Source: a virus. Taken from it: a stretch of 50,610 bases of DNA. Below the pieces are notes generated by a model. It did no database searches and was not told the origin of the DNA. It saw only the letters and a list, made by a program, of their open reading frames with translations. Location of the stretch: IMG/VR virus record IMGVR_UViG_3300037258_000793, positions 1 to 50,610 of that record. The stretch is one strand, 5' to 3'. Positions 3,717 through 49,431 of the stretch are shown one piece after another. Position 1 is the first letter of the stretch. The number at the start of each line of letters is the position of its first letter. The translations under genes and the position numbers were made by a program.

Positions 3717-3755
3717 GCAACAGACTTTACGACTTTTTACTACTTCATGCAACAG
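3715..3755. promoter_or_regulatory. divergent regulatory region with direct repeats
   Basis: The 9-base word ATGCAACAG occurs at 3715-3723 and again at 3747-3755, 32 bases apart, which is three helical turns. The first copy overlaps the start codon of the leftward XRE gene. Between them lie AT-rich bases with two copies of GACTTT (3723 and 3731). The whole 80-base gap between the divergent XRE genes is far richer in A and T than the rest of the window and is the likely switch operator. Confidence 0.5.
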
Positions 3756-3795
3756 AGGCGCTAAAACTCAATACGACTCGTGACCTGCACTGGAC

Positions 3796-4215
3796 ATGAC
3801 AAAACTTCACAGGAATGATCAAAACATGCCTAATACCGGCCAAGACCTCGCCGGCGCGATGACGGCACGACGCATCGAACTCGGCCTGAGCCAGAGCGCG
3901 GCCGCCCGCAGCGCAGGCGTCAGCCGACCCACCTGGGCCGGCTGGGAGAACACCACCAAGCCGTACGACAGCAACTACGCCGCCATCGAGCGCGTACTGC
4001 AATGGGAGCGCGGCAGCGTCAGCGCCGTGCTCGCCGGCCACGACCCCACCGCGCGCCGAGACGAAGCCTCCCCGTCCGGCTACGGGATCGACCCGGACGA
4101 GTGGGCGCGCTGGGACCCCATCGACCGGGAGATGGTCCTGAACGCCATCAAGGTCGCCCGCGCCCGCGCCGCACAGAATCCCCCGAATGAGCGAACGCGT
4201 AAACACGCGGGGTGA
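3796..4215 (+). CDS. XRE-family regulator (rightward)
   Basis: A 139-residue protein with an N-terminal helix-turn-helix around residues 16-70: MTARRIELGLSQSAAARSAGVSRPTWAGWENTT, then YAAIERVLQWERGSVSAVLAG. The C-terminal half contains an acidic DPDEWARWDPIDREMVLNAIKVARARA helix, probably for self-association. The start could be ATG 3796 or ATG 3826; neither has a strong ribosome site, and the fold is intact with either. Divergent from the XRE gene at 3462 and overlapping the next gene by GTGA. Likely a lysogeny-switch partner that also drives the integrase unit. Confidence 0.82.
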   Translation: MTKLHRNDQNMPNTGQDLAGAMTARRIELGLSQSAAARSAGVSRPTWAGWENTTKPYDSNYAAIERVLQWERGSVSAVLAGHDPTARRDEASPSGYGIDPDEWARWDPIDREMVLNAIKVARARAAQNPPNERTRKHAG

Positions 4216-10421: not shown

Positions 10422-10437
10422 TCGAACTACTGTTCGA
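10422..10437 (-). promoter_or_regulatory. perfect actinobacterial LexA (SOS) box before the lysis cassette
   Basis: TCGAACTACTGTTCGA matches TCGAAC-N4-GTTCGA, the established LexA site of mycobacteria and relatives, at all 12 defined positions. It lies 15 bases before the lysin start, beside its ribosome site, in a 69-base gap that otherwise separates the tail-spike gene from the lysin. Host LexA bound here would hold down a promoter for lysin, holin and the third lysis gene. Confidence 0.8.
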
Positions 10438-24835: not shown

Positions 24836-24851
24836 TCGAACATTTGTGCGA
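24836..24851 (-). promoter_or_regulatory. near-perfect LexA-type box upstream of the capsid gene
   Basis: TCGAACATTTGTGCGA matches TCGAAC-N4-GTTCGA at 11 of 12 positions. It lies in the 252-base gap between the scaffold and capsid genes, about 190 bases before the capsid start. On the minus strand TAGCAT, a plausible -10, follows 7 bases later. It may mark a separate capsid promoter. Confidence 0.5.
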
Positions 24852-32006: not shown

Positions 32007-32007
32007 G

Positions 32008-32535
32008 ATGCCGTACTCGTCAGGCCAGGGCAAGATGTGGCTGCTCACCCGGATCCGCGATCTGCAACCGCGCAGCATCCTGGACATCGGGGCCGGCTCC
32101 GGCACCTACTGGGACCTTCTAGGGTCCTACCTGCCGGACTGCCAGTTCACCGCGGTCGAGGTGCACGAGCCGTACGTCGACCAGTTCCGGCTGGGCAGCA
32201 AGTACAACCACGTGATCGTCGGCGACGCCCGGACCACCGAGCTGCCGGAGGCGGACGTGGTGATCCTCGGCGACGTGCTCGAGCACATGCGGTTCGGCGA
32301 CGCGAAGGCGCTGTGGACCCGGTGCCGGCAGGCGGCGCGGACGGCGGTGTTCCTGTCGCTGCCGATCGTCGAGTGGCCGCAGGGCCCCGTCGACGGGAAC
32401 GAGCACGAGGCCCACGTCCACCACTGGTCGTACGGGGCGGTGACGGCGCATCTGGAGGGGATCCGGGACTCGCACGCCTATCAGGCGATCGGCGTGTTCC
32501 AGGCCGGTCCGCTGGCGCAGGACGACGCGCTGTGA
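32008..32535 (+). CDS. SAM-dependent methyltransferase
   Basis: A 175-residue class I methyltransferase. Motif I is SILDIGAGSGTYWDLLG, motif II region FTAVEVHEPYVDQF, motif III VIVGDARTTELPEADVVILGDVLEHMRFGDA (the DVLEHM form common in sugar and small-molecule methyltransferases), and a later VFLSLPIVEWPQG strand. It begins one base after the glycosyltransferase stop, with ribosome site GGAGAAG, and overlaps the next gene as GTGA. It likely methylates a sugar or carrier made by the cassette. Confidence 0.88.
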   Translation: MPYSSGQGKMWLLTRIRDLQPRSILDIGAGSGTYWDLLGSYLPDCQFTAVEVHEPYVDQFRLGSKYNHVIVGDARTTELPEADVVILGDVLEHMRFGDAKALWTRCRQAARTAVFLSLPIVEWPQGPVDGNEHEAHVHHWSYGAVTAHLEGIRDSHAYQAIGVFQAGPLAQDDAL

Positions 32536-33152
32536 GGCCGGGGGTCACGGTCGTCATCCCGACGCATGCGGGCCGGGAGGACGTGTACGACCTGGCGGTG
32601 CGCAGCGTCGGGGCGCAGGAGCTGCTGCCGCTCGGCGGGATCGAGGCGGTGGCCGACTTGGAGCACGCTGGCGCGGCGGCGACGCGCGACCGCGGTCTGC
32701 AGGCGGTCCGCACCGAGTGGACGGCGTTCCTCGACAGCGACGACGTGCTCTATCCACAGCACCTGGCCGTGCTGATGAACGGCGCGCGCGAGCACCGCGC
32801 GGACTACGTGTTCACTTATTTCGACGTGATCGACCGGCTCGGCCGGGTCCAGCGCGGCGCCGACCCGCTGCGCCTGTTCGGCACGCCGTTCGATCCGGAG
32901 CGGCCGACGCAGACGACGATCACGGTGCTGGTGCGGACCGACCTCGCGCAGGAGGTCGGGTTTCAGGCGCCGGAGGCGGGCGCGATGATCGACGGGCAGG
33001 TCGCCGGCGAGGACTGGCGGTTCACCTTGGGCTGTCTCGCCGCGGGCGCCAAGATCGTGCATGTGCCGGAGCGGACGTGGGGCTGGCGGCACTGGGGTCG
33101 CAGCGCGCCGGGGCGGCCGGGCAACACGAGCGGTCGGGCGGACCGCTGGTAA
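32532..33152 (+). CDS. GT-A glycosyltransferase (GT2-like)
   Basis: A 206-residue family-2-like transferase started by GTG 32532. It has the nucleotide-binding start VTVVIPTHAGREDVYDLAVRSV, then RTEWTAFLDSDDVLYPQHLAVLM with a DSDD motif matching the metal-binding DxD, and a catalytic-type EDWRFTLGCLAAGAKIVHVPERTWGWRHWG. Shorter than typical GT2 proteins (about 250-300), so perhaps a minimal catalytic domain. It closes the cassette of transferase, methyltransferase and transferase and is followed by a tRNA gene. Confidence 0.86.
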   Translation: MRPGVTVVIPTHAGREDVYDLAVRSVGAQELLPLGGIEAVADLEHAGAAATRDRGLQAVRTEWTAFLDSDDVLYPQHLAVLMNGAREHRADYVFTYFDVIDRLGRVQRGADPLRLFGTPFDPERPTQTTITVLVRTDLAQEVGFQAPEAGAMIDGQVAGEDWRFTLGCLAAGAKIVHVPERTWGWRHWGRSAPGRPGNTSGRADRW

Positions 33153-33195
33153 CCGGGCTTTCGCTCATGCGTTCGATCCGAGTACCCTCGACGGC

Positions 33196-33270
33196 AGCAG
33201 AGTGGAGCAGTTCGGTCAGCTCGCTGGGCCCATAACCCAGAGGTCGCCGGTTCGAATCCGGCCTCTGCCA
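33196..33270 (+). tRNA. initiator-like tRNA-Met (CAT)
   Basis: All arms fold: acceptor AGCAGAG with CTCTGCC, D-stem GAGC/GCTC, anticodon stem CTGGG/CCCAG, loop CCCATAA with anticodon CAT at 33231-33233, a 5-base variable loop, T-arm GCCGG-TTCGAAT-CCGGC, discriminator A, no encoded CCA. It has initiator marks: a mismatched first pair (A1 with C72), A11:T24 in the D-stem, and three G:C pairs closing the anticodon stem. Position 33 is C instead of the nearly universal T. Confidence 0.9.
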
Positions 33271-33307
33271 CGAGTCCGGGGCCGCTTACTGTCCGGCGGC
33301 GGCCTAC

Positions 33308-34437: not shown

Positions 34438-34464
34438 AGGCCCCCAGGACCATCCTGGGGGCCT
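34438..34464 (+). terminator. strong intrinsic terminator
   Basis: AGGCCCCCAGG at 34438-34448 pairs exactly with 34454-34464 around a 5-base loop, followed by TCTT. It closes the rightward unit at 34032 and faces the end of the leftward translocase gene. The 34465-34580 stretch beyond it holds no gene, only several CTAACT words. Confidence 0.85.
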
Positions 34465-34580: not shown

Positions 34581-36692
34581 CTAACTCACGTCGGCCGGCT
34601 CGCGCGCTGCCATCGCGATCCGGATCGCGGCCGGGTCGACCGGGTACCGGTTGTTCGTCGACGGAACTTTCAGCCCGTACTCGTCGTCCAGCCGCGCCCT
34701 CAGGTCGGTGCCGGTCAGCCCGCGGTACGGCGGGTAGTTCGGCGCGAACACCTGCAGCCGCTTGGCCGCCTCGGCGACCGGTACCGGCTCGTCGCCGAGC
34801 ACCTCGGCCAGGTCGACGAGCAGATCCCGCCGCTCGGGCGCAGCAGCAGGCCGGGCGGTCGCCTTCGTGCGCGTGCCGTCCGCGACGACGTCCATGGCCC
34901 GCGCGATGACGTCGGTGGCGGCGTCGAACCCGGTGTCGTCGTTGACCTCGATGAAGAACCACTTCAGGATCTCGAACAGCTGATCCGACACGCCTGTGAT
35001 CAGCGACGTGCCGCGGTCGGTGCCCGGCCGCAGCTCGGTCGCCCGGATGCCGGCCGCAAACGACCCGTCACCGAGGAAGCCGTCGTTCGACCGCCAAGAC
35101 TTCACGTAGAAGCAGGCGTTGACGCTGACCAGCTCGACGATCTTGGGCGGGATCGCTTCCTTCCGGGCCGACTGGGTGTCGAACATCAGCGTGATGCCGG
35201 TCTTGCGGGCGCGCCGGATGGTGTTCGCGCCCATCTCCACGGCCTGCTCGCCGAACTCCGGGTGGCCGAACAGCTCGTGGCACTCGGAGAACAGCGCGAC
35301 GATCGGCCGCAGATCACTGCGCTCGGCGGCGATCTTGCGGGTCAACTTCTTCGCGCCGAGCTTGCGCAGCTCGTCCTCGCGCTTTTCGACCTCGGCGTAC
35401 AGGTCGACCATGGATTGCAGGCCTGCCGCGGTGACGTCGTCGGTCGCGCCGCGGTGGTAGCGGGCGAGGCGCGGTTCGAACGCGTCGAAGTCGCCGTTGT
35501 TGGCGAACACGTGCACCCACAGCTCGGCCAGCGGGTCCAGGGCGCAGCCGAGCATATAGACCCGGCACGCGTTGCTCTTGCCCTGGCCCATCTGTCCGCC
35601 GGCGACGGCGTTGGCGGCGTAGACGGGGGCGAGCAGCACGTCGCCGCGCGGGGTGATGCCGACCGGGACGCCGGCGAACACATCGGCGGTCCCGGTGTGC
35701 AGCAGCGGGTATTCGGGGGCGAGTCCGTCCAGGCTGCCGCGGTCGGCAACCCACACGTCGACGGCGCCCACCGGGCCGGTCTTGGCTTTGGCCGCGTCGG
35801 CCGGCCAGACCTCGACCTGCGATCGCATCAGGTTGCGGGCGAAGGTCTCGTTCACGTCGGCGATCATGGATGGGTTGACGCCGAGTGGCAGCTCGGCGAT
35901 GAAGCGGTAGCCTCTCCCCTCGCGCACGGGCGGCAGCGTGAACGCTGGCACCCAGCCGCTCTTGAATGCGGCGTTGAGCTTGGCGATGCCGAGGTGCTGG
36001 AGGGCCCGAACGACGCCGTCCGCGGTGACGATCAGCCCGGCGTTCTGCTGCTCGGGCTGGAGCTTGGCGACCCACTCTGTGCTGCTGATGGCGGCGTGGC
36101 GTCGGCCGAGGTTCCACAGCCACGCCAGCAGCCCGGCCGGGGCCGCCCACACGGCGAGCGCCATGGCGACGTCGACGGCGTCGGCGCACCAGCGGATGAC
36201 GTCGATAAGCGCCTTGAGCGGGCCGAGGACTTCGCGCGGCTGGTGGCTGGCCAGGGCGAGCAGGATGCCGAGGGCGAACAGGCCGGCCACGGTCAGCCCG
36301 GCGCCGACCAGGGCCGCTTTGGCGGCGTGGGGGGCGTGTCGGATCAGGTCCATGCGGCGCCGGTGGCGTTCCTGCCGCTGTTTGCGGGCGCGATCCTCCC
36401 ACTCCAGAACGCGCTCGTGGTCACCGGCCGCCTCGGCTGCGCGCATCATCCGCTCGTGGCGGGTGGTCGACCGGGAGTCGCGTGACCTGCGGGCTGCGAC
36501 GGACACGCCGAGGGCGACGTGGACGGCGTGCCGGGCCACGGTCTTGCTCGCCGGGTGGGTGACGACCCGGCGCACGAGCTGGCGGCGCGCGGGCGCGTCG
36601 GGAGTCAGTTCCGGGGCTGCTTCGGACGTAGCGGCTGGTGGTGCTGGGGGTGCGTCCGTCGGCGCGTCCGCGTCCGGGACGGTCTTCACCAT
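34581..36692 (-). CDS. FtsK/TraB-like DNA translocase
   Basis: A 703-residue membrane-anchored ATPase. Two membrane spans lie near residues 127-148 and 170-193 after a basic N-terminus. The motor domain has Walker A GQMGQGKS at about 366-373, a Walker B-like IVALFSECHELF near 465 (Ser-Glu in place of Asp-Glu), and FtsK-type ITLMFDTQSARKEAIPPKIVELV. The end (FAPNYPPYRGLTGTDLRARLDDEYGLKVPS) is a winged helix like FtsK-gamma. Similar proteins move double-stranded DNA between mycelial compartments in actinomycete plasmids and integrative elements. Ribosome site GGAAGGAG. Last gene of a leftward unit with DUF2637. Confidence 0.9.
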   Translation of the reverse strand: MVKTVPDADAPTDAPPAPPAATSEAAPELTPDAPARRQLVRRVVTHPASKTVARHAVHVALGVSVAARRSRDSRSTTRHERMMRAAEAAGDHERVLEWEDRARKQRQERHRRRMDLIRHAPHAAKAALVGAGLTVAGLFALGILLALASHQPREVLGPLKALIDVIRWCADAVDVAMALAVWAAPAGLLAWLWNLGRRHAAISSTEWVAKLQPEQQNAGLIVTADGVVRALQHLGIAKLNAAFKSGWVPAFTLPPVREGRGYRFIAELPLGVNPSMIADVNETFARNLMRSQVEVWPADAAKAKTGPVGAVDVWVADRGSLDGLAPEYPLLHTGTADVFAGVPVGITPRGDVLLAPVYAANAVAGGQMGQGKSNACRVYMLGCALDPLAELWVHVFANNGDFDAFEPRLARYHRGATDDVTAAGLQSMVDLYAEVEKREDELRKLGAKKLTRKIAAERSDLRPIVALFSECHELFGHPEFGEQAVEMGANTIRRARKTGITLMFDTQSARKEAIPPKIVELVSVNACFYVKSWRSNDGFLGDGSFAAGIRATELRPGTDRGTSLITGVSDQLFEILKWFFIEVNDDTGFDAATDVIARAMDVVADGTRTKATARPAAAPERRDLLVDLAEVLGDEPVPVAEAAKRLQVFAPNYPPYRGLTGTDLRARLDDEYGLKVPSTNNRYPVDPAAIRIAMAAREPADVS

Positions 36693-36709
36693 GCTCTCCT
36701 TCCGATTGG

Positions 36710-36955
36710 CTACGGCCGGCGGCGCAGTCGTCCGCCGCTGGCGGCGTGCTCGGCCTCGATACGTTGGGCGGCCTCGTAGCGGTCGCCTTCGCGTGCCTCC
36801 CGGCTGACCACATTGCCGCGCCTGTCGGTGACCGTGACCGTGTAGCGGCCCCGGCTGTCCGGCGCGCCGAATTCGACCTGGCCGTGTCCGCTGTCCAGCA
36901 CGATCGGCCGTTCGGCCTTGCGGTCGCCGCTGGCACTGTTGCCGAAGAGTCCCAT
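36710..36955 (-). CDS. small protein upstream of the translocase
   Basis: An 81-residue protein. The middle forms strands (PIVLDSGHGQVEFGAPDSRGRYTVTVTDRRGNVVS) and the end a helix (DRYEAAQRIEAEHAA), a small beta-hairpin-then-helix domain. ATG 36955 overlaps the preceding stop as TGATG. It lies in the unit of transfer-like genes. No family recognised. Confidence 0.68.
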   Translation of the reverse strand: MGLFGNSASGDRKAERPIVLDSGHGQVEFGAPDSRGRYTVTVTDRRGNVVSREAREGDRYEAAQRIEAEHAASGGRLRRRP

Positions 36956-37146
36956 CAGTGCCCTCCGTCGCTCTCGCGCTGGTCGACCGTGATCCATTCG
37001 ATGGCCGGGGAGCTGCCGAACGTGTCCTCGAGCTCGGCGGCGCGCTTCGCGGAGACGTCCGGGTGCTGCTGCGTCTGGCCGTTGGAGCGGATGGTCACGT
37101 CGAAGCGCGCACCGCTGTTGCTGTCGCCGACGGTGTCGTTGGGCAT
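36955..37146 (-). CDS. small protein in the transfer-like unit
   Basis: A 63-residue protein from ATG 37146: a strand RFDVTIRSNGQTQQH, a helix SAKRAAELEDTFG and a final strand AIEWITVDQ. The composition parallels the neighbouring 81-residue protein, and both may bind DNA or each other. No family recognised. Confidence 0.6.
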   Translation of the reverse strand: MPNDTVGDSNSGARFDVTIRSNGQTQQHPDVSAKRAAELEDTFGSSPAIEWITVDQRESDGGH

Positions 37147-37148
37147 GG

Positions 37149-37598
37149 TCAGTACCTCGTGTTCGTGGGGGTCGGGTTGCGGTGGCCGCGGATCTCGACC
37201 GCGACGACGAGTGCACACAGGACTGTGGCGAGGGCGGCCAGCGCGGTGATGGCCAGGGCGATGCGGGATCCGGTGGCCGCGGTGTCGAGCAGGCTGAGGG
37301 CCGAGCCGAAGAGGCCGGCCAACATCGCCGTCTGCGCCTCGGTGAACCGGCCGCAACGATGCGGCGGCCCGCCGCGGGTCGGCGCGGCCGGCGACGTGCC
37401 GGGCATCGTGACGTCGATGCCGGGATGCGCCGGCGCCGCGGTCGACCCGTGCAGGACGATCGGGCGCTCAGCGCGCGCGAAGTCGGCAGCCGCCCGGAAC
37501 AGTCCGGCGAGCTCGCCGACGTTGACCGTCTGGCTGGGCGTCGGTTCGGCCAGTTCGGCGGCCGTGACGACGCGCGCTGGCACTCTCGGCTCATTCAT
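37149..37598 (-). CDS. single-span membrane protein in the transfer-like unit
   Basis: A 149-residue protein. The N-terminal 100 residues are soluble, with a helix NVGELAGLFRAAADFARAERPIVL. One membrane span is at about residues 113-135 (RIALAITALAALATVLCALVVAV), followed by a short basic tail. It overlaps the DUF2637 gene by 8 bases. The setting resembles the small membrane spread (spd) genes of actinomycete plasmids, but no direct match is claimed. Confidence 0.66.
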   Translation of the reverse strand: MNEPRVPARVVTAAELAEPTPSQTVNVGELAGLFRAAADFARAERPIVLHGSTAAPAHPGIDVTMPGTSPAAPTRGGPPHRCGRFTEAQTAMLAGLFGSALSLLDTAATGSRIALAITALAALATVLCALVVAVEIRGHRNPTPTNTRY

Positions 37599-38676
37599 CG
37601 GCGTTGTCCTTCGCGAGGTACCGGCCGATGGTCCGTTCGCTCACGCCGATGCGCTCGGCGATCTGGCGCTTGGTCCAGTCGGGATGGCGCGCCCGCAGGT
37701 CCCTCGCCCGGTCGGCCGGATTGCGGGGGCGACGTGCGGCGGGACGCTGGACGCTGTCCGGCTCGATGTCCTGGACGCTGTCCGGCGCGACGGTGGGCTC
37801 AGGGCGGCTTGATCGCGGGCGGCGGCGACCGGCCGGCTGCCAGCCGCGGTGTCGCGGTCGCTGTCTCGGCCGGTACCGCACACGGGGCAGGTCGCTCGGA
37901 GGAGCGGATCCGACGAGTGCGAGGGCCTGCTCGATGTCGTGCTCGGTGTCGTCGTCCGTGTCCGGCTCGCCGTCCGGTCCGGCCGCCGCCGTGGCGGTCG
38001 CGTAGACGTCGGCCGGGCCGACCTCGGCCAGGGCGATCTGCAGGCGCAGCAGCGGGCCGACACGCCACCGCCAGCCGCGGCCGTGCAGCGTCCGGGCCGC
38101 GGCGATCGCGCCGAGCCTCTGGCGCTCCATGTCCAGGGCCCGCGGGTAGGAGTTGATGCGCCACAGGACCATGCGGCGCCACAGCTTGAGCGTCGGCCAG
38201 GGCGAGACGAGCCAGCGGGAGGTGGGGATCGGTTCGCGGCGCGACCCGGTGGCCAGGTTCGTCTGGCGGCGCACGACGTGCCGCATCAGCTCGATGAACA
38301 CGACCCAGATGGACGGCATGAGCACGTGGGCGACGCGGCCGGGCAGGTTGCCGGTGGCGTTGAAGTTCAGGTAGACGGTGCCGGCGGTCGCGCCGTACAC
38401 GGTGAGGCGGGCGAGCGGGTGGGACATGTCGAGTCGGGCCAGGACGAGGTCGACGCCGGAGAAGACGAAGACGGTCAGGTCGACGACGATCGGCACGAGC
38501 CAGGACCAGCGGTATCCGAATGCGGGGATCATCTCGGTGGACACGGCGCGGAACGAGAGCACCATGCCGCCGACCGCGATCAGCGCGGCCATGACGCCGA
38601 TGGTGGCGGCGACGGTGGTCCAGCCGCCGCCGAGCGGTTCGACACGCCGGTGGTCCGTCTCGGCCGGGCCGCTCAC
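37591..38676 (-). CDS. DUF2637 (SpdB-like) membrane protein with C-terminal helix-turn-helix
   Basis: A 361-residue protein from GTG 38676, overlapping the small gene upstream as GTGA. Four membrane segments lie within residues 15-140: TVAATIGVMAALIAVGGMVLSF, WLVPIVVDLTVFVFSGVDLVLA, RLTVYGATAGTVYLNF and VLMPSIWVVFIELMRHVV. This is the DUF2637 fold found with TraB-type translocases. An acidic and basic linker leads to a C-terminal helix-turn-helix (DWTKRQIAERIGVSERTIGRYLA). SpdB-like proteins help plasmid spread between hyphal compartments; here the gene is carried by a phage. Confidence 0.85.
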   Translation of the reverse strand: MSGPAETDHRRVEPLGGGWTTVAATIGVMAALIAVGGMVLSFRAVSTEMIPAFGYRWSWLVPIVVDLTVFVFSGVDLVLARLDMSHPLARLTVYGATAGTVYLNFNATGNLPGRVAHVLMPSIWVVFIELMRHVVRRQTNLATGSRREPIPTSRWLVSPWPTLKLWRRMVLWRINSYPRALDMERQRLGAIAAARTLHGRGWRWRVGPLLRLQIALAEVGPADVYATATAAAGPDGEPDTDDDTEHDIEQALALVGSAPPSDLPRVRYRPRQRPRHRGWQPAGRRRPRSSRPEPTVAPDSVQDIEPDSVQRPAARRPRNPADRARDLRARHPDWTKRQIAERIGVSERTIGRYLAKDNADE

Positions 38677-38816
38677 CGTGCGGCCGTCCGGGCGTTGCGC
38701 AGCACGCAGACGGTGAGAGTGGCCACGAGGGCGCCGAGCACGGCGTTCGTGGCGGTCGGGTGGGTCAGGTAGCTCGCAGCGATCGCGACAGTCGCGAGGA
38801 GGCGTCGGGTAGCCAT
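38673..38816 (-). CDS. 47-residue membrane peptide heading the transfer-like unit
   Basis: A short frame from ATG 38816: TRRLLATVAIAASYL, then TNAVLGALVATLTVCVLRNART, giving one or two membrane segments. Its stop overlaps the DUF2637 start as GTGA, which supports real translation. The start codon lies inside the left arm of a 39-base inverted repeat, suggesting tight control, perhaps from a leaderless message. Confidence 0.62.
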   Translation of the reverse strand: MATRRLLATVAIAASYLTHPTATNAVLGALVATLTVCVLRNARTAAR

Positions 38817-38853
38817 GGCCCAAGTGTAATGAAATCCTTTACACTTGGGCCAT
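38815..38853. promoter_or_regulatory. perfect 15-bp inverted repeat in a divergent promoter
   Basis: ATGGCCCAAGTGTAA at 38815-38829 and its exact complement at 38839-38853 flank a 9-base spacer TGAAATCCT. The repeat sits between the leftward transfer-like unit and the rightward helix-turn-helix gene at 38870 and covers the start codon of the former. It is most likely the operator of that regulator. Confidence 0.75.
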
Positions 38854-38869
38854 CCTTAGACTCTGGTCT

Positions 38870-39151
38870 GTGACTGATGAGGGAATTGAGGGCGCGGTGG
38901 AGGAGCTTCGGGCGATCACTGACCCGGTCGAACGCGCGCTGGCCGCCCACCGGTTGCAGGGGCGCATTTCGACGGCGCGCAGGGACGTGTCCGTGATCCG
39001 GACCGAGACGGTGCGGCAACTGCGCACGCGGGGCTGGTCGCATCAGCAGGTCGCGGATCTGCTGGGGATCTCGCGGGGGAACGCGCAGGGCATCGCTGAG
39101 GGCCGCGGCCTGAATGCGGACGCGCGCGACGCCGGACAGCCGGAGGACTAG
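38870..39151 (+). CDS. helix-turn-helix regulator of the divergent promoter
   Basis: A 93-residue protein from GTG 38870. A helical N-terminal half (EGAVEELRAITDPVERALAAHRLQGRI) is followed by a sigma-region-4-like helix-turn-helix: VRQLRTRGWSHQQVADLLGISRGNAQGIAEG. The pattern is common in small actinomycete plasmid and phage regulators. It lies 17 bases from a perfect inverted repeat and ends overlapping the convergent gene by 4 bases. It probably controls the DUF2637-FtsK unit and itself. Confidence 0.78.
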   Translation: MTDEGIEGAVEELRAITDPVERALAAHRLQGRISTARRDVSVIRTETVRQLRTRGWSHQQVADLLGISRGNAQGIAEGRGLNADARDAGQPED

Positions 39152-39618
39152 ACCGTCCAGGCCGGGTCGTAGTCCGGATGCTCGACGAACGGGGCGGCGA
39201 GGGCCAGGACGGCCACGGTGAGGGCTTCCTCGGCGCCCTGAACCCTCTGCGCGTCGAAGGCGTGGTAGCCGTCGCGGCGCACCTCCGCGATTCGTGTGCG
39301 GGCCCCTGCGTAGGCCTTGACGATGGCACGCTTGGCGGCGATGTCGGCTAGGACGCGGGCCGGATCCCAGTACGCCACGTGCCGCGTCGTCGATGCCGTC
39401 ATGCACAGCGTCGAGCTGCCTTCGCAGTCCCACAGTCCGATGCCGTCAGCGGCGATGACGAGGCCGAAGCCGTGCTCCCAGGCTCGTTCTGAGGCGCCGC
39501 GCTCGTTGCTGGCGTTGGCTGTCCATGGCGCCGGGTCAGCGGCCGCGGCTGCCTCGGCGAGCTGCTGCTCCTCGTCGTAGCGGGCGGTCAGGAACTCGAC
39601 GATGTCCACGTCAGCCAT
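39148..39618 (-). CDS. DUF6221-like protein
   Basis: A 156-residue protein matching a family seen in actinophages and streptomycetes: an N-terminal helix VDIVEFLTARYDEEQQLAEAA, then WEHGFGLVIAADG, HVAYWDPARVLADIAAKRAIVKAY and a closing APFVEHPDYDPAW. The phrases PARVLADIAAKRAI and HPDYDPAW are the recurring ends of this family. Function unknown. Last gene of the leftward early region. Confidence 0.75.
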   Translation of the reverse strand: MADVDIVEFLTARYDEEQQLAEAAAAADPAPWTANASNERGASERAWEHGFGLVIAADGIGLWDCEGSSTLCMTASTTRHVAYWDPARVLADIAAKRAIVKAYAGARTRIAEVRRDGYHAFDAQRVQGAEEALTVAVLALAAPFVEHPDYDPAWTV

Positions 39619-40036
39619 TATCGCCGTTCCGCGGAGGCGCGGGGCGTAGCTCGGTGGCGCGCAGCGCGAAGTAGGCGGCGACCGGATCGGCCGGAAGCGG
39701 CTGGTCGGGCACCGGCATGACGGCGCCGGGGCGTGTCGGGTGCGGCTCGTTGTGGAAGGTGAGCGGCAGCTGGAACGAGGGTGCGAGGGGCGCCCCGTTG
39801 TCGGCGCTGGCGTCCCGCTTCGTGAGCCGGAAGCGCATGGCGTACGAGGCAGCGTCCAGGCCGGTCGTCAGTGTCCAGTCGCCTTCCTGGGCCTGGTTGA
39901 GTTCTTCGATGGTGATCTCGATCTGGCCTCCGAGGCGGTCGACGAGAACGGCGATGACGGCGTAGGCCTGCTTGATCTCGTCGCGCCGGTTGGCTTCGCG
40001 GTATGCGGCGGTCGCTGTTTCCTGGAGGAAGTCCAC
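39611..40036 (-). CDS. hypothetical early protein
   Basis: A 141-residue protein from GTG 40036. Helix REANRRDEIKQAYAVIAVLVDRLGG leads to a strand EITIEELNQA and a beta region TTGLDAASYAMRFRLTKRD, then a Pro-rich stretch. It overlaps its downstream neighbour by 8 bases. No family recognised. Confidence 0.65.
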   Translation of the reverse strand: MDFLQETATAAYREANRRDEIKQAYAVIAVLVDRLGGQIEITIEELNQAQEGDWTLTTGLDAASYAMRFRLTKRDASADNGAPLAPSFQLPLTFHNEPHPTRPGAVMPVPDQPLPADPVAAYFALRATELRPAPPRNGDNG

Positions 40037-40037
40037 G

Positions 40038-40496
40038 TCAGCCGCCGTGTCCGTTGGCGCGTGGCTGGAAGATCGTGCCGTCCGGAAGCGCCAGTCCGCC
40101 GGTGCGTTGCGTGGCGAGCTCGGCCGGAGTGCCGATCTTGTGACGGCTCTCGCACAGGGCGTTGCCGCCGACGACGGTGCGCGCGGGCAGAACCGGCTGA
40201 GGCTCGGCGCCCGCCGTGTTGGCCTTGCGGGCTTCCTGGATGCAGCCGGCGCAGTAGAGCACGCCGAGCTGCGGCTGGCCGAGGCCGGTGCGGACGGTGG
40301 CGAGGTCGGTTTCGTGGCGGGCGTCGGCGAGTGCTTGGGCCCATTCGCTGGCGGGGTGTTCGTTGTAGTGCTCGCGGATGGCGGACTCGCTGGTGGGGTC
40401 GACGGTGCCGGTGTTGAGGTCGACGTCGATGGTGGTGGTCCAGTCGCAGTTGTCGAGCGCGCAGCCGACGGCGGTTGTGGTAGTGGGCTCCGGCAT
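40038..40496 (-). CDS. hypothetical protein with cysteine pairs
   Basis: A 152-residue protein from ATG 40496, with a ribosome site (GAAGGA). The N-terminal GCALDNCDWTTTID has two Cys five residues apart and a later YCAGCIQEARKA with a CxxC pair, so a split zinc site is likely. A further Cys lies in ALCESRHKIG. The first part resembles small Zn-ribbon proteins of actinophages. Function unknown. Confidence 0.65.
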   Translation of the reverse strand: MPEPTTTTAVGCALDNCDWTTTIDVDLNTGTVDPTSESAIREHYNEHPASEWAQALADARHETDLATVRTGLGQPQLGVLYCAGCIQEARKANTAGAEPQPVLPARTVVGGNALCESRHKIGTPAELATQRTGGLALPDGTIFQPRANGHGG

Positions 40497-40535
40497 CAGG
40501 GTCCTTCGAGGGCTTGAGGGGTGCTGGGGCGGTGG

Positions 40536-40571
40536 TTCCCCGCGCGTCGGGGGAAGACAACGCGCGGGGAA
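40536..40571 (-). terminator. perfect 12-bp hairpin closing the SOS/tad2 operon
   Basis: TTCCCCGCGCGT at 40536-40547 and its exact complement at 40560-40571 enclose a 12-base loop. It lies 29 bases beyond the stop of the tad2-like gene on the minus strand, separating that operon from the gene at 40496. Confidence 0.68.
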
Positions 40572-40599
40572 GCCGGGTGTTCATTGCGGCGCCCGGCCG

Positions 40600-40872
40600 T
40601 CAGGTGACGATTTCCCAGTCGTCGGCGAGCACGTCGCTAACCGTCGGCGCCCACGGCACGAAGTCGTGCTGCGCCGTGCACAGCATCAGGTACGGCCAGA
40701 ACCGGCAGACGGTGCCCTGCGGGAGTCCGGTGGCCTGTGCCGTGTTGGCGTTGATCCCGATGCCGCCCGGGTAGCCCGGCTGGAGCGCGACGTACTGGCC
40801 GGCTGCGTTCCAGCCGGCGCGTTCGACGCGGTCGCCGCTCTTGAGTGCGGCGAGCGCCGCGCCGAAGTCCAT
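40600..40872 (-). CDS. tad2: Tad2-like anti-Thoeris protein (DUF2829)
   Basis: A 90-residue DUF2829 protein. All family marks are visible: start MDFGAALAALKSGDRVERAGWN, GQYVALQPG, a central segment CRFWPYLMLCTAQHDFVPWAP, and the end SDVLADDWEIV. Proteins of this family (Tad2) bind and sequester the cyclic ADP-ribose-type signal made by Thoeris defence and so prevent NAD depletion in the infected cell. The start overlaps the upstream stop as TGATG. It is the last gene of a three-gene operon with a LexA-box promoter. Activity of this copy is inferred from family. Confidence 0.87.
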   Translation of the reverse strand: MDFGAALAALKSGDRVERAGWNAAGQYVALQPGYPGGIGINANTAQATGLPQGTVCRFWPYLMLCTAQHDFVPWAPTVSDVLADDWEIVT

Positions 40873-41504
40873 CAGGCGTTCGCGGGGGTGCTGCTCGTCG
40901 CGGCCGGGGCCACCGCGGCGGCCGACAGCGTGATGCTCGCCGGCGTCGAGTCGACGATGTCCAGCTCCAGCGTGCCGGTGACGCCGGTCGGGTCGGTCAC
41001 GGTGACGGTGACCGTGCCGACCGGCGCGTTGGCGAGCGTCGCGGTGAGCGTGGAGGGGTCGTCCGGATTGGCGGTGACGGTGCCGGCGGTCGCGGTCCAG
41101 GACAGCGTGTCCGGGACCGGCTGGCCCTCGGCGTTGTCGACGACGGCGGTCAGGGCGATGGTCTGTCCGGCGGGGATCTGCTGGTCGGCCACGATGGGTC
41201 GTCCTTCCAGGGTTGCGGTGATGGTGATGGTGGCGGCTTCGCAGGTGACGATGCCGCAGGTGCAGCCGTGGCCGAGGCCATGGGCTGTCGTCAGGAGCTC
41301 GGCCAGGTCGTGTTCGAGCTGGTCGACCTCGCGATGAATCTCTTCGAAATCCGCGTGGACGCGGCGCTTGAGGAGGCCGCGGATCCGGCCCATACGGGCT
41401 TTGACCTGCCAGTGCGGGTACTGGCCGTTGCCGGTGGCGATGGCGTCGACGACGCGGCGCGTGACTTCGTCGGCGATGGCAGCGACGGGCAGCTCGACGA
41501 TCAG
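40872..41504 (-). CDS. hypothetical protein with Ig-like C-terminal domain, unusual start
   Basis: The frame begins after the upstream stop and has no ATG or GTG for about 40 codons. A CTG at 41504 would give the common 4-base overlap (CTGA) and a 210-residue protein. The N-terminal half is helical (VAAIADEVTRRVVDAI, ADFEEIHREVDQLEHDLAELL) with a Cys pair (CTCGIVTC). The second half is a bacterial Ig-like beta-sandwich (TIALTAVVDNAEGQPVPDTLSWTATAGTVTANPDDP, GTVTVTVTDPTGVTGTLELDIV). An internal GTG at about 41194, with GGAAGGA before it, could produce the Ig domain alone. Coupled to the tad2-like gene. Confidence 0.68.
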   Translation of the reverse strand: MIVELPVAAIADEVTRRVVDAIATGNGQYPHWQVKARMGRIRGLLKRRVHADFEEIHREVDQLEHDLAELLTTAHGLGHGCTCGIVTCEAATITITATLEGRPIVADQQIPAGQTIALTAVVDNAEGQPVPDTLSWTATAGTVTANPDDPSTLTATLANAPVGTVTVTVTDPTGVTGTLELDIVDSTPASITLSAAAVAPAATSSTPANA

Positions 41505-41764
41505 GGGTGGGTGTGCGCTTCCGGCGCCGGCGTAGGGTCCGCGGCCACCGCGGTGCCGGACAGCTCGTCCTCCAGCCAGCCGAGCAGCCCGGTGTGGTGG
41601 TCGGCCAGCAGCTGCTCGACCTTCGCCTTCAGCGCCGCGGCCTCCGACTCGGCGTAGGCCTTGAAGCGGGCGAGCAGGTCGGCCGCCTCGGGCTCGAGGG
41701 CCTTGACGACGGGTCCGGCCGCGGCCTCGACCGCGCCGACGATCGCCTGTTCGGTCATGATCAT
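41501..41764 (-). CDS. small helical protein, first gene of the SOS/tad2 operon
   Basis: An 87-residue protein starting at ATG 41764 (or ATG 41758), with ribosome site AAGGGAG. It is a helical, acidic coiled-coil-type protein (VGAVEAAAGPVVKALEPEAADLLARF, KAYAESEAAALKAKVEQLLADHHTGLLGWLEDEL) with a flexible Pro/His end. No family recognised. It is the gene directly under the LexA-box promoter at 41803, so it is expected to be damage-induced. Confidence 0.72.
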   Translation of the reverse strand: MIMTEQAIVGAVEAAAGPVVKALEPEAADLLARFKAYAESEAAALKAKVEQLLADHHTGLLGWLEDELSGTAVAADPTPAPEAHTHP

Positions 41765-41802
41765 GACTCCCTTGGTGGGTGATGGATCCACAGGCCAGCG
41801 TA

Positions 41803-41818
41803 TCGAACACCCGTTCGA
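41803..41818 (-). promoter_or_regulatory. perfect LexA (SOS) box inside a promoter spacer
   Basis: TCGAACACCCGTTCGA matches TCGAAC-N4-GTTCGA fully. On the minus strand it lies between a -35-like CTGACT and a -10-like TACGCT that are 18 bases apart, so bound LexA would block the polymerase. The gene start at 41764 is 39 bases further on. The same promoter bases overlap the end of the small gene at 41823. Confidence 0.83.
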
Positions 41819-41822
41819 CAAG

Positions 41823-41987
41823 TCAGCAGGTCGGGTTGTCACCGGCATGCGGTTGCCACCCGCGCGCACGCGGCTGCGGCTCCGGGTGGGAGGCGTTGCT
41901 GGCCAGGGCGCGCCAGCCGTCCGGCGTGAGATAGACGGGCCGGCCGCAGCAGCAGCGGCGCCCGTTCGACGCGTCCGGGATGACCAT
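41823..41987 (-). CDS. 54-residue zinc-ribbon-like protein
   Basis: A short frame from ATG 41987, coupled to the preceding stop as TGATG. It reads VIPDASNGRRCCCGRPVYLTPDGWRALASN, with a CCC cluster and a later final Cys (NPTC). The segment RPVYLTPDGWRAL is typical of small actinophage zinc-ribbon proteins. It ends 5 bases before the SOS box of the next operon. Confidence 0.62.
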   Translation of the reverse strand: MVIPDASNGRRCCCGRPVYLTPDGWRALASNASHPEPQPRARGWQPHAGDNPTC

Positions 41988-42550
41988 CACGGCGCGCCGC
42001 CCGCAGCGGGCTCGTGCGGGCCGGGCGAACTGGAGTGCGACTCAGCGGGCGTGAGGGGGTGTGTGGGGCTGTCAGCGTGGCTGTGCGCGTCTCCTGGCGG
42101 CTGCTGTGGGCCGATCGTCTGGAGTTGCGCGAGGAAGATCTCGCGGGGACGCCCGTGGGGGGCGTAGCAGCTGATCCACTTGACGGCGTCGGTCGCCCAT
42201 GCGCGTAGCTGGTCGCGTTGGTCGACTGCGTCCTCGGCGAGCCCGGCGGTCTCGTCGATCAGTTGGAGCCGGGCGGCGCTCTGGCGGCGTAGCTGCTCGT
42301 TCTGGTCGAGCATGCGGTCACATTCGGCGCCCTTCTCTGCGAGCTCGGCCGCAAGCCGGTGTCGGTCGTCGTGGAGATCAGCGATCTCTCGTTCGCCCTG
42401 TTCCACGTCGGCACGCAGCTCGTCGCGCTCGGCGCGCAGCTCGTCGCGTTCCTGCTCGGCCTTCTCGGCGCGGTGGCGTAGTTGTGTGCGGCGCCGTTCG
42501 AGTTCGTTGATGCGGGCGCGGAACGCGCGGGCTTCGGCGGCGCTAGTCAC
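41987..42550 (-). CDS. coiled-coil early protein
   Basis: A 187-residue protein from GTG 42550. Residues 5-125 form one long coiled coil with heptads (ARINELERRRTQLRHRAEKAEQERDELRAERDELRADV, then DLHDDRHRLAAELAEKGAECDRMLDQ). A short conserved-looking module follows (AVKWISCYAPHGRPREIFLAQLQTIG) and a Ser/Pro/His-rich end. Function unknown; a scaffold for other early proteins is possible. Confidence 0.7.
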   Translation of the reverse strand: MTSAAEARAFRARINELERRRTQLRHRAEKAEQERDELRAERDELRADVEQGEREIADLHDDRHRLAAELAEKGAECDRMLDQNEQLRRQSAARLQLIDETAGLAEDAVDQRDQLRAWATDAVKWISCYAPHGRPREIFLAQLQTIGPQQPPGDAHSHADSPTHPLTPAESHSSSPGPHEPAAGGAP

Positions 42551-43052
42551 GGTCGGCTCCGGGCGCCTCTTCCCACGGTCCGACCCGGCGGCGTACGACG
42601 GTGCCGTGGTAGAAGTCCTGGTCGTCGCCGGGCTTCTCGTCGCGGATGTCGATCTCGTCGTCGCCGTCCCAGCGGACGCCGTACTCGTGGTTGCTGATCG
42701 CGGCGAGTTCGGCGCGCTCGTCGTCGTCCGGGAGCGTGTCGGTGTCGTCGGCGGTGTGGTCGAAGACGGTGGCGAGGGCGCGGGCGTCGTCGGGGCGTAG
42801 TTCGACGTTGTGGCCGCCGGTGTCGGCCTGGTCGGCTTGGTCGCGCAGGTGGGTGGCGAGGGCGTGGACGGTGTCGGTCGGGGTGGGCAGGAGGGGTGCG
42901 AGGCGTGCGGCGAGGGCGTTGACCAGGATGGCGGGGTCGCTGTAGGTGGGTTTGTCGTCGCTGGTGATGAAGCGGGCGATCTGGCCGCGGTTGTGGATGC
43001 GGGCGTCGCGCATGGCGTGGCGGATGGCGTCGTGGAGCTGGTCGCCGGTCAT
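42543..43052 (-). CDS. hypothetical early protein
   Basis: A 169-residue acidic protein. The N-terminal half (GDQLHDAIRHAMRDARIHNRGQIARFITSDDKPTYSDPAILVNALAARLAPLL) is helical. The second half is acidic, with a strand-rich end (DEIDIRDEKPGDDQDFYHGTVVRRRVGPWEE). It overlaps the coiled-coil gene by 8 bases. No family recognised. Confidence 0.66.
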   Translation of the reverse strand: MTGDQLHDAIRHAMRDARIHNRGQIARFITSDDKPTYSDPAILVNALAARLAPLLPTPTDTVHALATHLRDQADQADTGGHNVELRPDDARALATVFDHTADDTDTLPDDDERAELAAISNHEYGVRWDGDDEIDIRDEKPGDDQDFYHGTVVRRRVGPWEEAPGADRD

Positions 43053-43053
43053 G

Positions 43054-43341
43054 TCAGTGTCCTGTCGTGTAGATCTCTTCGCCGATAGCGGCGAGGGTGG
43101 TGATCATGAACTGTGGGTCGGCGAGGTCCGGCCGCTCTTCGAGCATCAGTTGCAGGACGAGTGCGGCGTGCATGACGGCGGTTCCGGCGCTGTGCGTGTC
43201 CAGGTCCGGGAACTGGCCGGTGATCTGGGTGGCGCCCGCGTGGGCGAGCATGCGGATGCCGGGGTGGCTGGCGTTGGCGCGGGTGTGGATGTCGGCGGCG
43301 AGCTGGTCGAGCAGCGCGGTACTCGCGTAGTAGTCGGTCAT
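43054..43341 (-). CDS. small helical early protein
   Basis: A 95-residue, mostly helical protein (TALLDQLAADIHTRANAS, AVMHAALVLQLMLEERPDLADPQFMITTLAAIGEEIYT). ATG 43341 begins one base after the upstream stop. No family recognised. Confidence 0.64.
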   Translation of the reverse strand: MTDYYASTALLDQLAADIHTRANASHPGIRMLAHAGATQITGQFPDLDTHSAGTAVMHAALVLQLMLEERPDLADPQFMITTLAAIGEEIYTTGH

Positions 43342-43342
43342 G

Positions 43343-43702
43343 TCAGGCTCCGTCGTTGGCGCAGTAGACGCACAGGTCGCCGGCTTCGGCGCGGATGACG
43401 TGGCAGCGGGCGCACTTGGGCAGCGCGGCGACCGTGCCGCGGCGCGGCTTGGCCGGTCGGACCGGGCTGGTGGCTCGGCCGGCGGTGGGCACCGGCCACA
43501 GCCCTTCGAGGAGCGTGCGGGCTTCGTCGGCGGTGTATGCGGGCTGCCCGGAGCGGTGGAGGGGCTGATAGGCGTGATCGACGAGGTGGACCAGGTCGTC
43601 GATTGTTTGGGCTCGGGAGATGGGTGCGCCGCACGATAGTTGGCCGGTGAGGTGGCGCATGACGCTTTGGACGGCGTTGGCTTCGGTGAGGTTGAGGGCC
43701 AT
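43343..43702 (-). CDS. hypothetical protein with C-terminal zinc ribbon
   Basis: A 119-residue protein. A helical N-terminal domain (LTEANAVQSVMRHLTGQL, QTIDDLVHLVDHAYQPL, TADEARTLLEGLW) is followed by a basic linker and a zinc ribbon LPKCARCHVIRAEAGDLCVYCAND with two CxxC pairs. Possibly nucleic-acid binding. Part of the chain downstream of the replication genes. Confidence 0.68.
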   Translation of the reverse strand: MALNLTEANAVQSVMRHLTGQLSCGAPISRAQTIDDLVHLVDHAYQPLHRSGQPAYTADEARTLLEGLWPVPTAGRATSPVRPAKPRRGTVAALPKCARCHVIRAEAGDLCVYCANDGA

Positions 43703-43703
43703 G

Positions 43704-43967
43704 TCAGTGGGCTGTTTCTGTGAGGATGTCGCGGGCTCGGTCGAGGCAGGCGAGGGTGGCGGCGCGCTGGCCGGCCTGGGTGGCGTGGCGGGCGCCTTCG
43801 AGGTTGGCGGCGAGGCGTGCGAGTTCGGCGCGGGTGAGGGTGCGGGCCGGTTTGGCCGGCAGGGGTGTTTCGGCGAGGGCGGCTGTGAGGGTGTTGCGGT
43901 GGGCTGTGGCGTCGGGGTCGGCGGGGAGTCGGGCGAGGATGAGCGTGGCGAGCTCGATGGTGGTCAT
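43704..43967 (-). CDS. small helical protein after the helicase loader
   Basis: An 87-residue helical protein from ATG 43967, overlapping the loader-like gene as ATGA (TIELATLILARLPADPDATAHRNTLTAAL, LTRAELARLAANLEGARHATQAGQRAATLACLDRARDIL). No family recognised; coupling suggests a replication-related role. Confidence 0.64.
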   Translation of the reverse strand: MTTIELATLILARLPADPDATAHRNTLTAALAETPLPAKPARTLTRAELARLAANLEGARHATQAGQRAATLACLDRARDILTETAH

Positions 43968-44497
43968 CGGTGCCCTGCGCGCTGGTCGTCGGCGGCCGCG
44001 GCCTGGTCGAGGATGGCGAGCAGCTGCGCGCGGATCGGGGAGTCGTTGGGCCGCGGGGCGCCCGGTGTCTCGGTGTCGGCGGCGGGGATGTAGCCGGTCC
44101 ACTGCTCGGGCGTTTTGAGCGAGTACGGCGGATCGCAGAGTTTGCGGGCGATCTGCGGGTGGGCGAGTACGAGGTCGCGGCGTTGCTGGTTGAGGATCGG
44201 GGCGTGGATGGCGCGGTGGCTGACGCGTTTGCGCCATTCGCCGGGGTTCTGCGCGATGTTCTCGGGTGGCACGGGGATGGGCTTGTTGTGGGGTGCCGGG
44301 CCCAGCAGGTAGCGGATGTCGGCCGGGCGTATGCGGTCGGGGTTGCGGCTGTAGTGCCGGGTGACCATGTCGCGGCAGGCGGTGAAGTCGAGGTCGTGGA
44401 GGGCTCCGGCCCAGGCGATGACGTCGGCGTCGCCGACGGTGCGCTGGTCGTAGCAGGCTATGAAGGCGAGTAGCTGCGCCGCCTCGGACATGATCAT
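43964..44497 (-). CDS. helicase-loader-like protein (lambda P / G39P role)
   Basis: A 177-residue protein directly coupled to the replication initiator (ATGA). The N-terminal 60 residues match the pattern of replicative-helicase loader/inhibitor proteins such as SPP1 G39P: SEAAQLLAFIACYDQRTVGDADVIAWAGALHDLDFTACRDMVTRHYSRNPDRIRPADIRYLL. The rest is basic and flexible, with a short helical end. In lambda and SPP1 such proteins bring the host DnaB-type helicase to the initiator-bound origin. No helicase gene is seen here, so host helicase would be used. Confidence 0.72.
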   Translation of the reverse strand: MIMSEAAQLLAFIACYDQRTVGDADVIAWAGALHDLDFTACRDMVTRHYSRNPDRIRPADIRYLLGPAPHNKPIPVPPENIAQNPGEWRKRVSHRAIHAPILNQQRRDLVLAHPQIARKLCDPPYSLKTPEQWTGYIPAADTETPGAPRPNDSPIRAQLLAILDQAAAADDQRAGHR

Positions 44498-45363
44498 GTG
44501 GTGATCTCCGGGCGGTTCGTGCCGAACAGGTCCGGGAGTTGGCCGGTCTGCTCCATGGCGCGGTATTTGGCGGCGAGGTCGAGGGCGGCGCCGACGCGCT
44601 GGTCGGTGGTGGAGGGCCTCGGCGGATACGGGCCGTTGGCTGTCGGCGCGAAGGCGCCGGAGGTTGTGGGGGGCGGCTGGAACCGGTCGGCGGCGCTGAG
44701 GATCCAGTTGTGCCAGGTGCGTTCCCAATTGAGCTTTACGCCTTTAGAGCCGGGCACCGACGAGAAGTGGTTGATGAATTTCTGCGTTTCACGTTCGCCG
44801 TCGACGTGCGGGGCGTTTTCCCGGCCCCATTCCCGCATGGCGTCGGTGAGGGCGAAGTCTTCCGGGATGCGGGTGCCCCGCTTGGCGGCTGTCGTCGAGC
44901 CGCGCTTGCGCGGCGCCGAAGACGAACGTAGTGAGTCTTCTTGTTCTTCTGTTCCTTGGTGGTTCTGTGTGTCAGCAGTGACACCCCTGGGTGGTCGATC
45001 TGACACCCCTGGGGTGTCATTTTGGAACCCCTGGGGTGTCAGATTGAGACTCGTAGTGGTGTCATCCTGCGACCCCTGGGGTGTCAGTCTGGTACCACTA
45101 GGGCCGTCCATGAGGATCCGGTAGCGACTCGTCGAGCGCCCGGTGCCGTGCTGCGATATCTCAAGCCAGCGCTTTCCGATGCAATTCTTCTGCGTGCGGA
45201 AAACGGTGCTGCGGCTCATTCTTGTCTTGCGTGCGAGTGTTTCCACGCTGGGGAATGCCTCGCCCTCGTCGTCGGCGAAATCCGCGATGGCGAGCAGCAG
45301 CAGCAGGTCGTTTCCGGCCGCGGGGGAGGTGTCCCACACCCATGACATGACCCTGACGCTCAC
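44494..45363 (-). CDS. replication initiator (lambda O-like) carrying the origin
   Basis: A 289-residue protein. The start is GTG 45363 with ribosome site GGGAG; ATG 45348 is an alternative. The N-terminal winged helix (residues 15-95) reads DLLLLLAIADFADDEGEAFPSVETLARKTRMSRSTVFRTQKNCI and RYRILMDG, like phage O-type and DnaD-like initiators. Residues 95-150 are low-complexity and are encoded by 22-base DNA iterons. The C-terminal domain (PEDFALTDAMREWGRENAP, ETQKFINHFSSVPGSKGVKLNWERTWHNWIL) resembles the partner-binding end of such initiators. It is followed by the loader-like gene. Confidence 0.82.
   Translation of the reverse strand: MSVRVMSWVWDTSPAAGNDLLLLLAIADFADDEGEAFPSVETLARKTRMSRSTVFRTQKNCIGKRWLEISQHGTGRSTSRYRILMDGPSGTRLTPQGSQDDTTTSLNLTPQGFQNDTPGVSDRPPRGVTADTQNHQGTEEQEDSLRSSSAPRKRGSTTAAKRGTRIPEDFALTDAMREWGRENAPHVDGERETQKFINHFSSVPGSKGVKLNWERTWHNWILSAADRFQPPPTTSGAFAPTANGPYPPRPSTTDQRVGAALDLAAKYRAMEQTGQLPDLFGTNRPEITT
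44979..45110. other. ori: iteron-type replication origin inside the initiator gene
   Basis: Six copies of a near-palindrome are spaced 22-23 bases apart, with centres at 44988, 45010, 45032, 45055, 45077 and 45099. The copy at 45001-45019, TGACACCCCTGGGGTGTCA, is a perfect palindrome. Those centred at 45032 and 45077 keep ACCCCTGGGGTGTCA; the others are degraded. The spacing is not a multiple of three, so protein repetition cannot explain it. On the downstream side of the gene (44926-44975) lies a T-rich, lower-GC tract, a candidate unwinding element. The layout mirrors lambda ori in gene O. Confidence 0.78.
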
Positions 45364-45470: not shown

Positions 45471-45751
45471 TCGTGAAGATTGGTAGGACTGGCGTGAAAC
45501 CCGTCCCCATGACTGAGGTGCGCCCTCGGCTGACGGAGATCGTCGATGCCGCACGCGACCGCAACGAGGCCACCGCGATGACCGAGTACGGCCGGCCGCG
45601 TGCCTTCGTCGTCTCGGTGCCGTTCTTCGAGCGCGCCGAGCGCGACTCCCGGCTCGCCGGCCTGCTGTGGGAGCGCGACCCGCAACTGTTCGACGACCTG
45701 CTCAAAGGACTGCCGGACATCTCGGTGCCGTCGCGGATGGTCGCCGAGTAG
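45467..45751 (+). CDS. Phd/YefM-like antitoxin without a toxin partner
   Basis: A 94-residue protein (ATG 45467; 45458 also possible). The N-terminal TEVRPRLTEIVDAARDRNEATAMTEYGRPRAFVVSVPFFERAE is the Phd/YefM DNA-binding domain. The C-terminal ERDSRLAGLLWERDPQLFDDLLKGLPDI is an acidic helix that would bind a toxin. No Doc, YoeB or PIN gene follows; a terminator comes 13 bases after the stop. It may serve only as a regulator next to the replication promoter or counter a host toxin. Confidence 0.82.
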   Translation: MVVKIGRTGVKPVPMTEVRPRLTEIVDAARDRNEATAMTEYGRPRAFVVSVPFFERAERDSRLAGLLWERDPQLFDDLLKGLPDISVPSRMVAE

Positions 45752-47926: not shown

Positions 47927-47961
47927 GCCTGCCGGGCGCCAGTGCGGGACGCCCGGCAGGC
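47927..47961 (-). terminator. perfect 12-bp hairpin
   Basis: GCCTGCCGGGCG at 47927-47938 and its exact complement at 47950-47961 enclose an 11-base loop. It lies downstream of the decapeptide-repeat gene on the minus strand and before the gene at 47900. Confidence 0.65.
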
Positions 47962-49402: not shown

Positions 49403-49431
49403 GGCCCCGGCCGATTGCGCCGGCCGGGGCC
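49403..49431 (-). terminator. 10-bp hairpin after the Lsr2-like gene
   Basis: GGCCCCGGCC at 49403-49412 pairs exactly with 49422-49431 around a 9-base loop, 12 bases past the stop of the Lsr2-like gene. Confidence 0.65.

Follow-up and report, generated by a model that had tools for sequence, protein, structure and literature searches.

A predicted three-gene unit ending in tad2

The DNA analysed here (the window) is the whole of IMG/VR record IMGVR_UViG_3300037258_000793, 50,610 bases with about 70% G+C, which gene calls and profile searches identify as a temperate tailed actinophage or prophage. The unit of interest comprises the following features, all on the minus strand:

41797-41826, minus strand, predicted promoter: CTGACT (41826-41821), 18-nt spacer, TACGCT (41802-41797), with the LexA box within the spacer
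41803-41818, minus strand, perfect predicted LexA (SOS) box TCGAACGGGTGTTCGA, putative operator of the tad2 operon (consensus from PMC9380542)
41501-41764, minus strand, ORF1, 87 aa from the first ATG or 85 aa from the second ATG at 41758
40872-41504, minus strand, ORF2, 210 aa from a CTG at 41504 or 173 aa from the ATG at 41393
40600-40872, minus strand, ORF3, Tad2 (DUF2829, PF11195), 90 aa, last gene of the operon
40536-40571, minus strand, perfect 12-bp hairpin (arms 40571-40560 and 40547-40536), putative transcript end

The remainder of the genome was mapped by the following calls:

3462-3716 and 3826-4215, small HTH genes (region 3462-4215), by profile search
4930-6171, integrase, by profile search
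9571-10407, minus strand, lysin-like gene (Rv2525c glycoside-hydrolase-like, just under the Pfam cut-off; PHROG endolysin)
23699-24649, minus strand, major capsid protein gene (phrog_10)
26750-28852, portal, by profile search
28866-30428, terminase, by profile search
33196-33271, plus strand, tRNA-Met (CAT)
44494-45339, replication initiation gene, by profile search

By tblastn, the terminase matched those of Streptomyces phages at ~40%, and it had no close relative in the genome and viral collections searched. Prophages with a related terminase (44-48% identical) that were found in a genome search share almost only structural genes with this phage. Beside the terminase lie three rightward genes (30918-33152), by eye of glycosyltransferase and methyltransferase type, and a homologue of the first adjoins the terminase of a related prophage in L125. 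Other features caught our attention. An FtsK/SpoIIIE-like protein and a DUF2637 protein are encoded at 34581-38676, inside the phage genome, a pair otherwise seen in actinomycete conjugative elements. A perfect 15-bp inverted repeat with a 9-nt loop (38815-38853), operator- or hairpin-like, spans the start of a 47-aa ORF and lies 5' of a rightward gene at 38897. A Phd/YefM-type antitoxin-like gene (45494-45751) scored just under the Pfam cut-off, and an adjoining toxin was not obvious.

Predicted LexA boxes in the phage genome

LexA of S. venezuelae binds tCGAAC-N4-GNNCGa (PMC9380542). We used this consensus, which may not be that of the present host, to define a strict box. Three strict sites were found in addition to the one of the tad2 operon:

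10422-10437, minus strand, second perfect predicted LexA box, 15 nt upstream of the lysin-like gene
24836-24851, minus strand, predicted LexA box (tCGAACN4GNNCGa), followed by a TAGCAT -10-like hexamer; the major capsid gene starts 187 nt downstream
33161-33176, plus strand, predicted LexA box (tCGAACN4GNNCGa), upstream of tRNA-Met, with a TACCCT -10-like hexamer

Read on the minus strand from 41818 to 41803, the box of the tad2 operon is TCGAAC-GGGT-GTTCGA. It has no mismatch to the 16-base palindrome TCGAACN4GTTCGA, as a preliminary description of this DNA had stated, and it stands 39 nt upstream of three close-packed leftward genes. Counts over the whole 50.6-kb record were compared with a null in which codons were shuffled within genes (1000 shuffles). 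Two perfect sites were seen against 0.004 expected, and four strict sites against 0.44 (P about 0.003). All four strict sites were intergenic, with an intergenic share of 16-mers of 7.2%, which gives a probability of ~3e-5 under random placement; sites fitting only the looser CGAACN4GNNCG all fell within genes. The E. coli-type SOS box CTGTN8ACAG showed no excess in the record, and no strict site was found near the phage HTH genes (3462-4215). Judged by sequence, position and statistics, the site at 41803-41818 is an actinobacterial LexA box.

At the outset, the promoter had been proposed to place anti-defence specifically under SOS control. That proposal found no support, since predicted boxes are also present in front of the capsid gene, the lysin gene and tRNA-Met; tad2 seems to be one of several outputs of a LexA set that spans the phage.

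The same motif in actinomycete genomes and in other phages

Perfect boxes were rare in four actinomycete genomes of 5-7.5 Mb that hold related integrases or terminases: each contained 4-9, and the reversed-pattern control gave 0. Some of these boxes precede dnaE2 (error-prone polymerase), imuB and imuA', the downstream frames being read by eye. Only one strict site occurred in the 220 kb around the related integrase and terminase genes of these same genomes. Neither the operon nor the box pattern was present in three prophages with related terminases, so the tad2-operon/box arrangement is not conserved. Prophage genes rank with the most strongly induced LexA targets of S. venezuelae (PMC9380542). 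Induction of the Streptomyces prophage Samy is apparently SOS-independent (PMC11302927), which indicates that not all actinophages are under SOS control.

A scan of viral contigs for an SOS box plus an RBS-like motif served as a source of examples. Among the matches listed, perfect SOS boxes lay directly 5' of terminase small subunit genes in L184 (6232-6823), L169 (2154-2626) and L136 (3917-4318), and most of the matches listed had no clear gene behind the box. Going by the terminase cases, many actinophages may have late genes under direct LexA control. Tandem SOS boxes were also noticed in L171 and L191, a tandem pair preceding a gene that matches a minor-tail PHROG.

ORF3 is a predicted Tad2 protein

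Tad2 proteins form homotetramers with two signal pockets, and they have so far been characterised mainly as a means for infecting phages to beat Thoeris. ORF3 matched PF11195 over its full length (E 4.2e-23; 82.1 bits against a curated cut-off of 25). Its AlphaFold2 model, predicted as a monomer, was confident (pLDDT 95.9) and showed a helix-bearing insertion at about residues 34-58. The structure of ModTad2 with His-ADPR was the best Foldseek match (E 3e-9), and 24 of the 24 matches with E<=0.001 were Tad2/AcrIIA7. A PDB sequence search also returned the Tad2 family, with ModTad2 as the closest solved relative. ORF3 resembles SPO1 Tad2, ModTad2, SptTad2 and HgmTad2/AcrIIA7 in domain, length, fold and the R-x-G-W-N and D-x-L-A-x-D-W motifs, but differs from them in sitting behind a predicted LexA box in an actinophage. 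Taken together, HMM, PDB sequence search and predicted fold make a clear case for a Tad2-family protein, and the initial assignment of the last gene as DUF2829/Tad2 was thereby confirmed.

Proposed upstream partners of tad2

ORF1 encodes an acidic protein that is probably helical and has a Pro/Ala-rich tail, and its second ATG (41758) has the better spacing from GGGAG. The start of ORF2 is less straightforward. Its first ATG, GTG or TTG is the ATG at 41393, 108 nt past the ORF1 stop, but the frame has strong coding statistics already from 41501, that is, from the stop codon of ORF1. Since the coding signal begins 108 nt ahead of any such start, translation of ORF2 would have to begin at a CTG or to enter the frame by a -1 slip on C-CCC ahead of UGA. 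This bears on the 1-4-base overlaps by which the three genes had been said to be joined: the single-base overlap between ORF2 and tad2 (TGATG) stood, whereas the 4-base overlap between ORF1 and ORF2 presupposes initiation at CTG 41504 (within CTGA) or else a -1 frameshift at C-CCC-UGA.

ORF2 matched PKD/Big_9 below the Pfam cut-off and had no PHROG or PDB match; a Gln_amidase match, also below the Pfam cut-off, was judged spurious. An AlphaFold2 model built without relatives, of low confidence (pLDDT 57), consisted of three helices followed by a beta sandwich, and its weak Foldseek matches included head, neck-whisker and Ig structural proteins. ORF2 is likely a virion-type or surface Ig protein. 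Searches of phages, IMG/VR, the PDB and samples of actinomycete genomes (299 and 395) found no relatives of ORF1 or ORF2; in such samples, a negative result that lacks a positive control says little.

Fetched Tad2 relatives came from viral contigs (52-71% identity) and, in one case, from an Actinoplanes genome (59%); the closest (60-71% identity) lie in unrelated gene contexts. None of the fetched loci had a perfect SOS box near tad2, and the ORF1-ORF2-tad2 order was absent from every other one. The neighbours of tad2 vary: in L098, and likewise in L094, they are genes for a lysin and a small membrane protein, in L093 tail-end genes and in L016 the terminase; in L097, tad2 stands directly after the capsid gene, and other loci show yet other neighbours. 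In a set of 88 proteins, of which all but the first come from genes immediately 5' of tad2 elsewhere, the recurring families were portal, minor head, head morphogenesis and holin. Often tad2 adjoins head genes, and portal, minor head or lysis genes are frequent neighbours. Apart from a weak Ig-type match in L026 (E 0.008), the fetched loci encoded nothing related to ORF1 or ORF2. In this Lelliottia locus, the capsid gene is followed by a gene for an Ig structural protein (phrog_215) and then by tad2, with a 4-base overlap between the latter two. By analogy, the Ig gene-tad2 pair of this unrelated phage is the nearest counterpart of ORF2-tad2, an arrangement that argues for ORF2 being a structural-type Ig protein and not a new anti-defence protein. 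As for ORF1, a small helical protein beside tad2 in L095 was considered as a counterpart and rejected, as it gave no alignment despite a similar look.

The preliminary description had put forward ORF1 and ORF2 as anti-defence candidates by virtue of their association with tad2. With no detectable relatives, a gene order shared with no other fetched tad2 locus and a resemblance of ORF2 to virion Ig proteins, this claim has so far found no support, and the lack of the gene order in relatives weakens it by the criterion set in that description. One may go further and view the operon as a virion or morphogenesis module, whose main product would be the Ig-type surface protein and in which tad2 would be a passenger. 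The Ig-like C-terminal part of ORF2 with its weak structural matches, the Ig structural gene between capsid gene and tad2 in L026, and the portal, minor head or lysis genes next to tad2 elsewhere would all fit. However, the operon is distant from the structural genes of this phage, and ORF2 lacks PHROG and PDB matches, has sub-threshold Pfam matches and a fold of low confidence. We consider such a module unlikely, albeit the least unlikely of the alternatives weighed here.

Promoter, transcript end and possible read-through

The LexA box had been described as lying within the 18-base spacer of a promoter. Hexamers do flank the box at this spacing, and they are a loose fit to the actinobacterial TTGACN/TANNNT; a stricter E. 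coli-type scan of 38000-45000 found no promoter. At the other end of the unit, the hairpin that had been noted was recovered as such, its arms pairing at 12 of 12 positions. The region has a folding energy of -42.4 kcal/mol (z -2.66; 1 of 200 shuffles equally stable). No U tract follows it, and Rfam gave no match across the operon region. The hairpin is probably the transcript end. Other perfect hairpins occur between genes of the record at 34438-34464, 47927-47961 and 49403-49431.

All called genes from 45339 down to 39148 point leftward, and the gene before ORF1 ends at 41823, leaving a gap of 58 nt. Because the operon sits within this long leftward cluster, read-through could also express tad2. 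A possibility is then that the predicted LexA promoter is real but minor, and that tad2 is mainly expressed as an ordinary early gene by read-through from the cluster (45339 to 41823). The weakness of the promoter hexamers, the shared gene direction and the short gap would agree with this. Against it, a perfect box lies between the promoter-like hexamers, the hairpin closes the unit, and the four boxes of the genome are all intergenic. On balance, we find predominant read-through rather improbable.

Signal bound by ORF3 and identity of the repressor

ModTad2 binds His-ADPR and SPO1 Tad2 binds gcADPR (PMC13299392). ORF3 might target another signal than that of Thoeris, namely CBASS cyclic dinucleotides, or might have an AcrIIA7-type activity, since AcrIIA7, HgmTad2 and SptTad2 have the same fold and since Tad2 proteins with a long insertion, which ORF3 may echo with its helix at ~34-58, bind cyclic dinucleotides (PMC12043709). 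That the closest solved relative, ModTad2, binds His-ADPR speaks for a Thoeris-type signal, and we hold another target to be doubtful, about on a par with predominant read-through. Finally, the palindrome could be the operator of a phage-encoded regulator, as the phage encodes several small HTH proteins (3462-3716, 3826-4215) and as four operators across one phage genome would also suit a phage repressor, but this is very unlikely given that the sequence is the actinobacterial LexA consensus, which marks SOS genes in actinomycete genomes, and that the HTH genes have no strict site in their vicinity.

DISCUSSION

The reading that we favour, with a probability of about 0.6, is that host LexA gates part of the lytic programme of this phage, with Tad2 as one output, made from co-derepressed promoters and sequestering a Thoeris-type signal. 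In the lysogen, host LexA would occupy 41803-41818, inside the promoter of ORF1-ORF2-tad2, as well as the similar sites in front of capsid gene, lysin gene and tRNA. Upon DNA damage, activated RecA would lead to LexA cleavage, and these phage promoters would be freed together. The tad2 operon would be transcribed up to the hairpin at 40536-40571, and Tad2 would bind and sequester the nucleotide signal of the Thoeris (or a related) system of the host, so that the induced lysogen would survive until lysis. Tad2 made alongside capsid would be a counter-defence matched to its trigger. The analysis itself established the box, the excess of such boxes and their intergenic placement, the presence of the motif at actinomycete SOS genes, the Tad2 identity of ORF3, and the layout of the operon with its hairpin; from sequence and literature we infer LexA binding, promoter activity, co-induction, and signal sequestration with its purpose.

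Thoeris senses, and can be triggered by, the major capsid protein, and has also been studied with an induced prophage (PMC12578639). Once its prophage is induced, a lysogen would make capsid and could therefore activate the Thoeris system of its own host, and co-derepressing capsid and Tad2 would then make sense. A broader version, in which LexA acts as a distributed direct switch over capsid, lysin, tRNA and counter-defence, such that the Thoeris trigger and the Tad2 sponge are released by one damage signal, is more tentative, and we would place it below an even chance.

Tad2 is already known, and so is direct LexA control of phage genes (PMC9380542; PMC4551915). The same box consensus occurs at prophage genes of S. 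venezuelae, where damage induction is strong (PMC9380542); here, four predicted boxes, known from sequence, are spread over early, capsid, tRNA and lysis regions, and one of them fronts a counter-defence gene. In phage GIL01, host LexA is the direct repressor of lysogeny through SOS boxes in a phage promoter (PMC4551915), as we likewise propose. However, GIL01 has a set of boxes in a single lysogenic promoter and relies on its own co-factor gp7, whereas this tailed actinophage would have single boxes at separate promoters. Salmonella prophage antirepressors (PMC3121763) are alike in that LexA controls one small phage gene acting at induction, but their product switches induction itself, whereas the product here would be a signal sponge. 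In the literature searched, which covered few subscription papers and is weak evidence in this respect, no paper linked LexA with Tad2 or another anti-defence gene.

If the favoured reading is true, tad2 under host SOS control would be a counter-defence timed to coincide with prophage exit, a stage at which the Thoeris system of the lysogen itself could cut virion production short. Capsid, the trigger of Thoeris, and Tad2, its silencer, appear under one host switch. And if the late-gene LexA boxes are functional, some actinophages would give the timing of their late genes directly to the damage response of the host.
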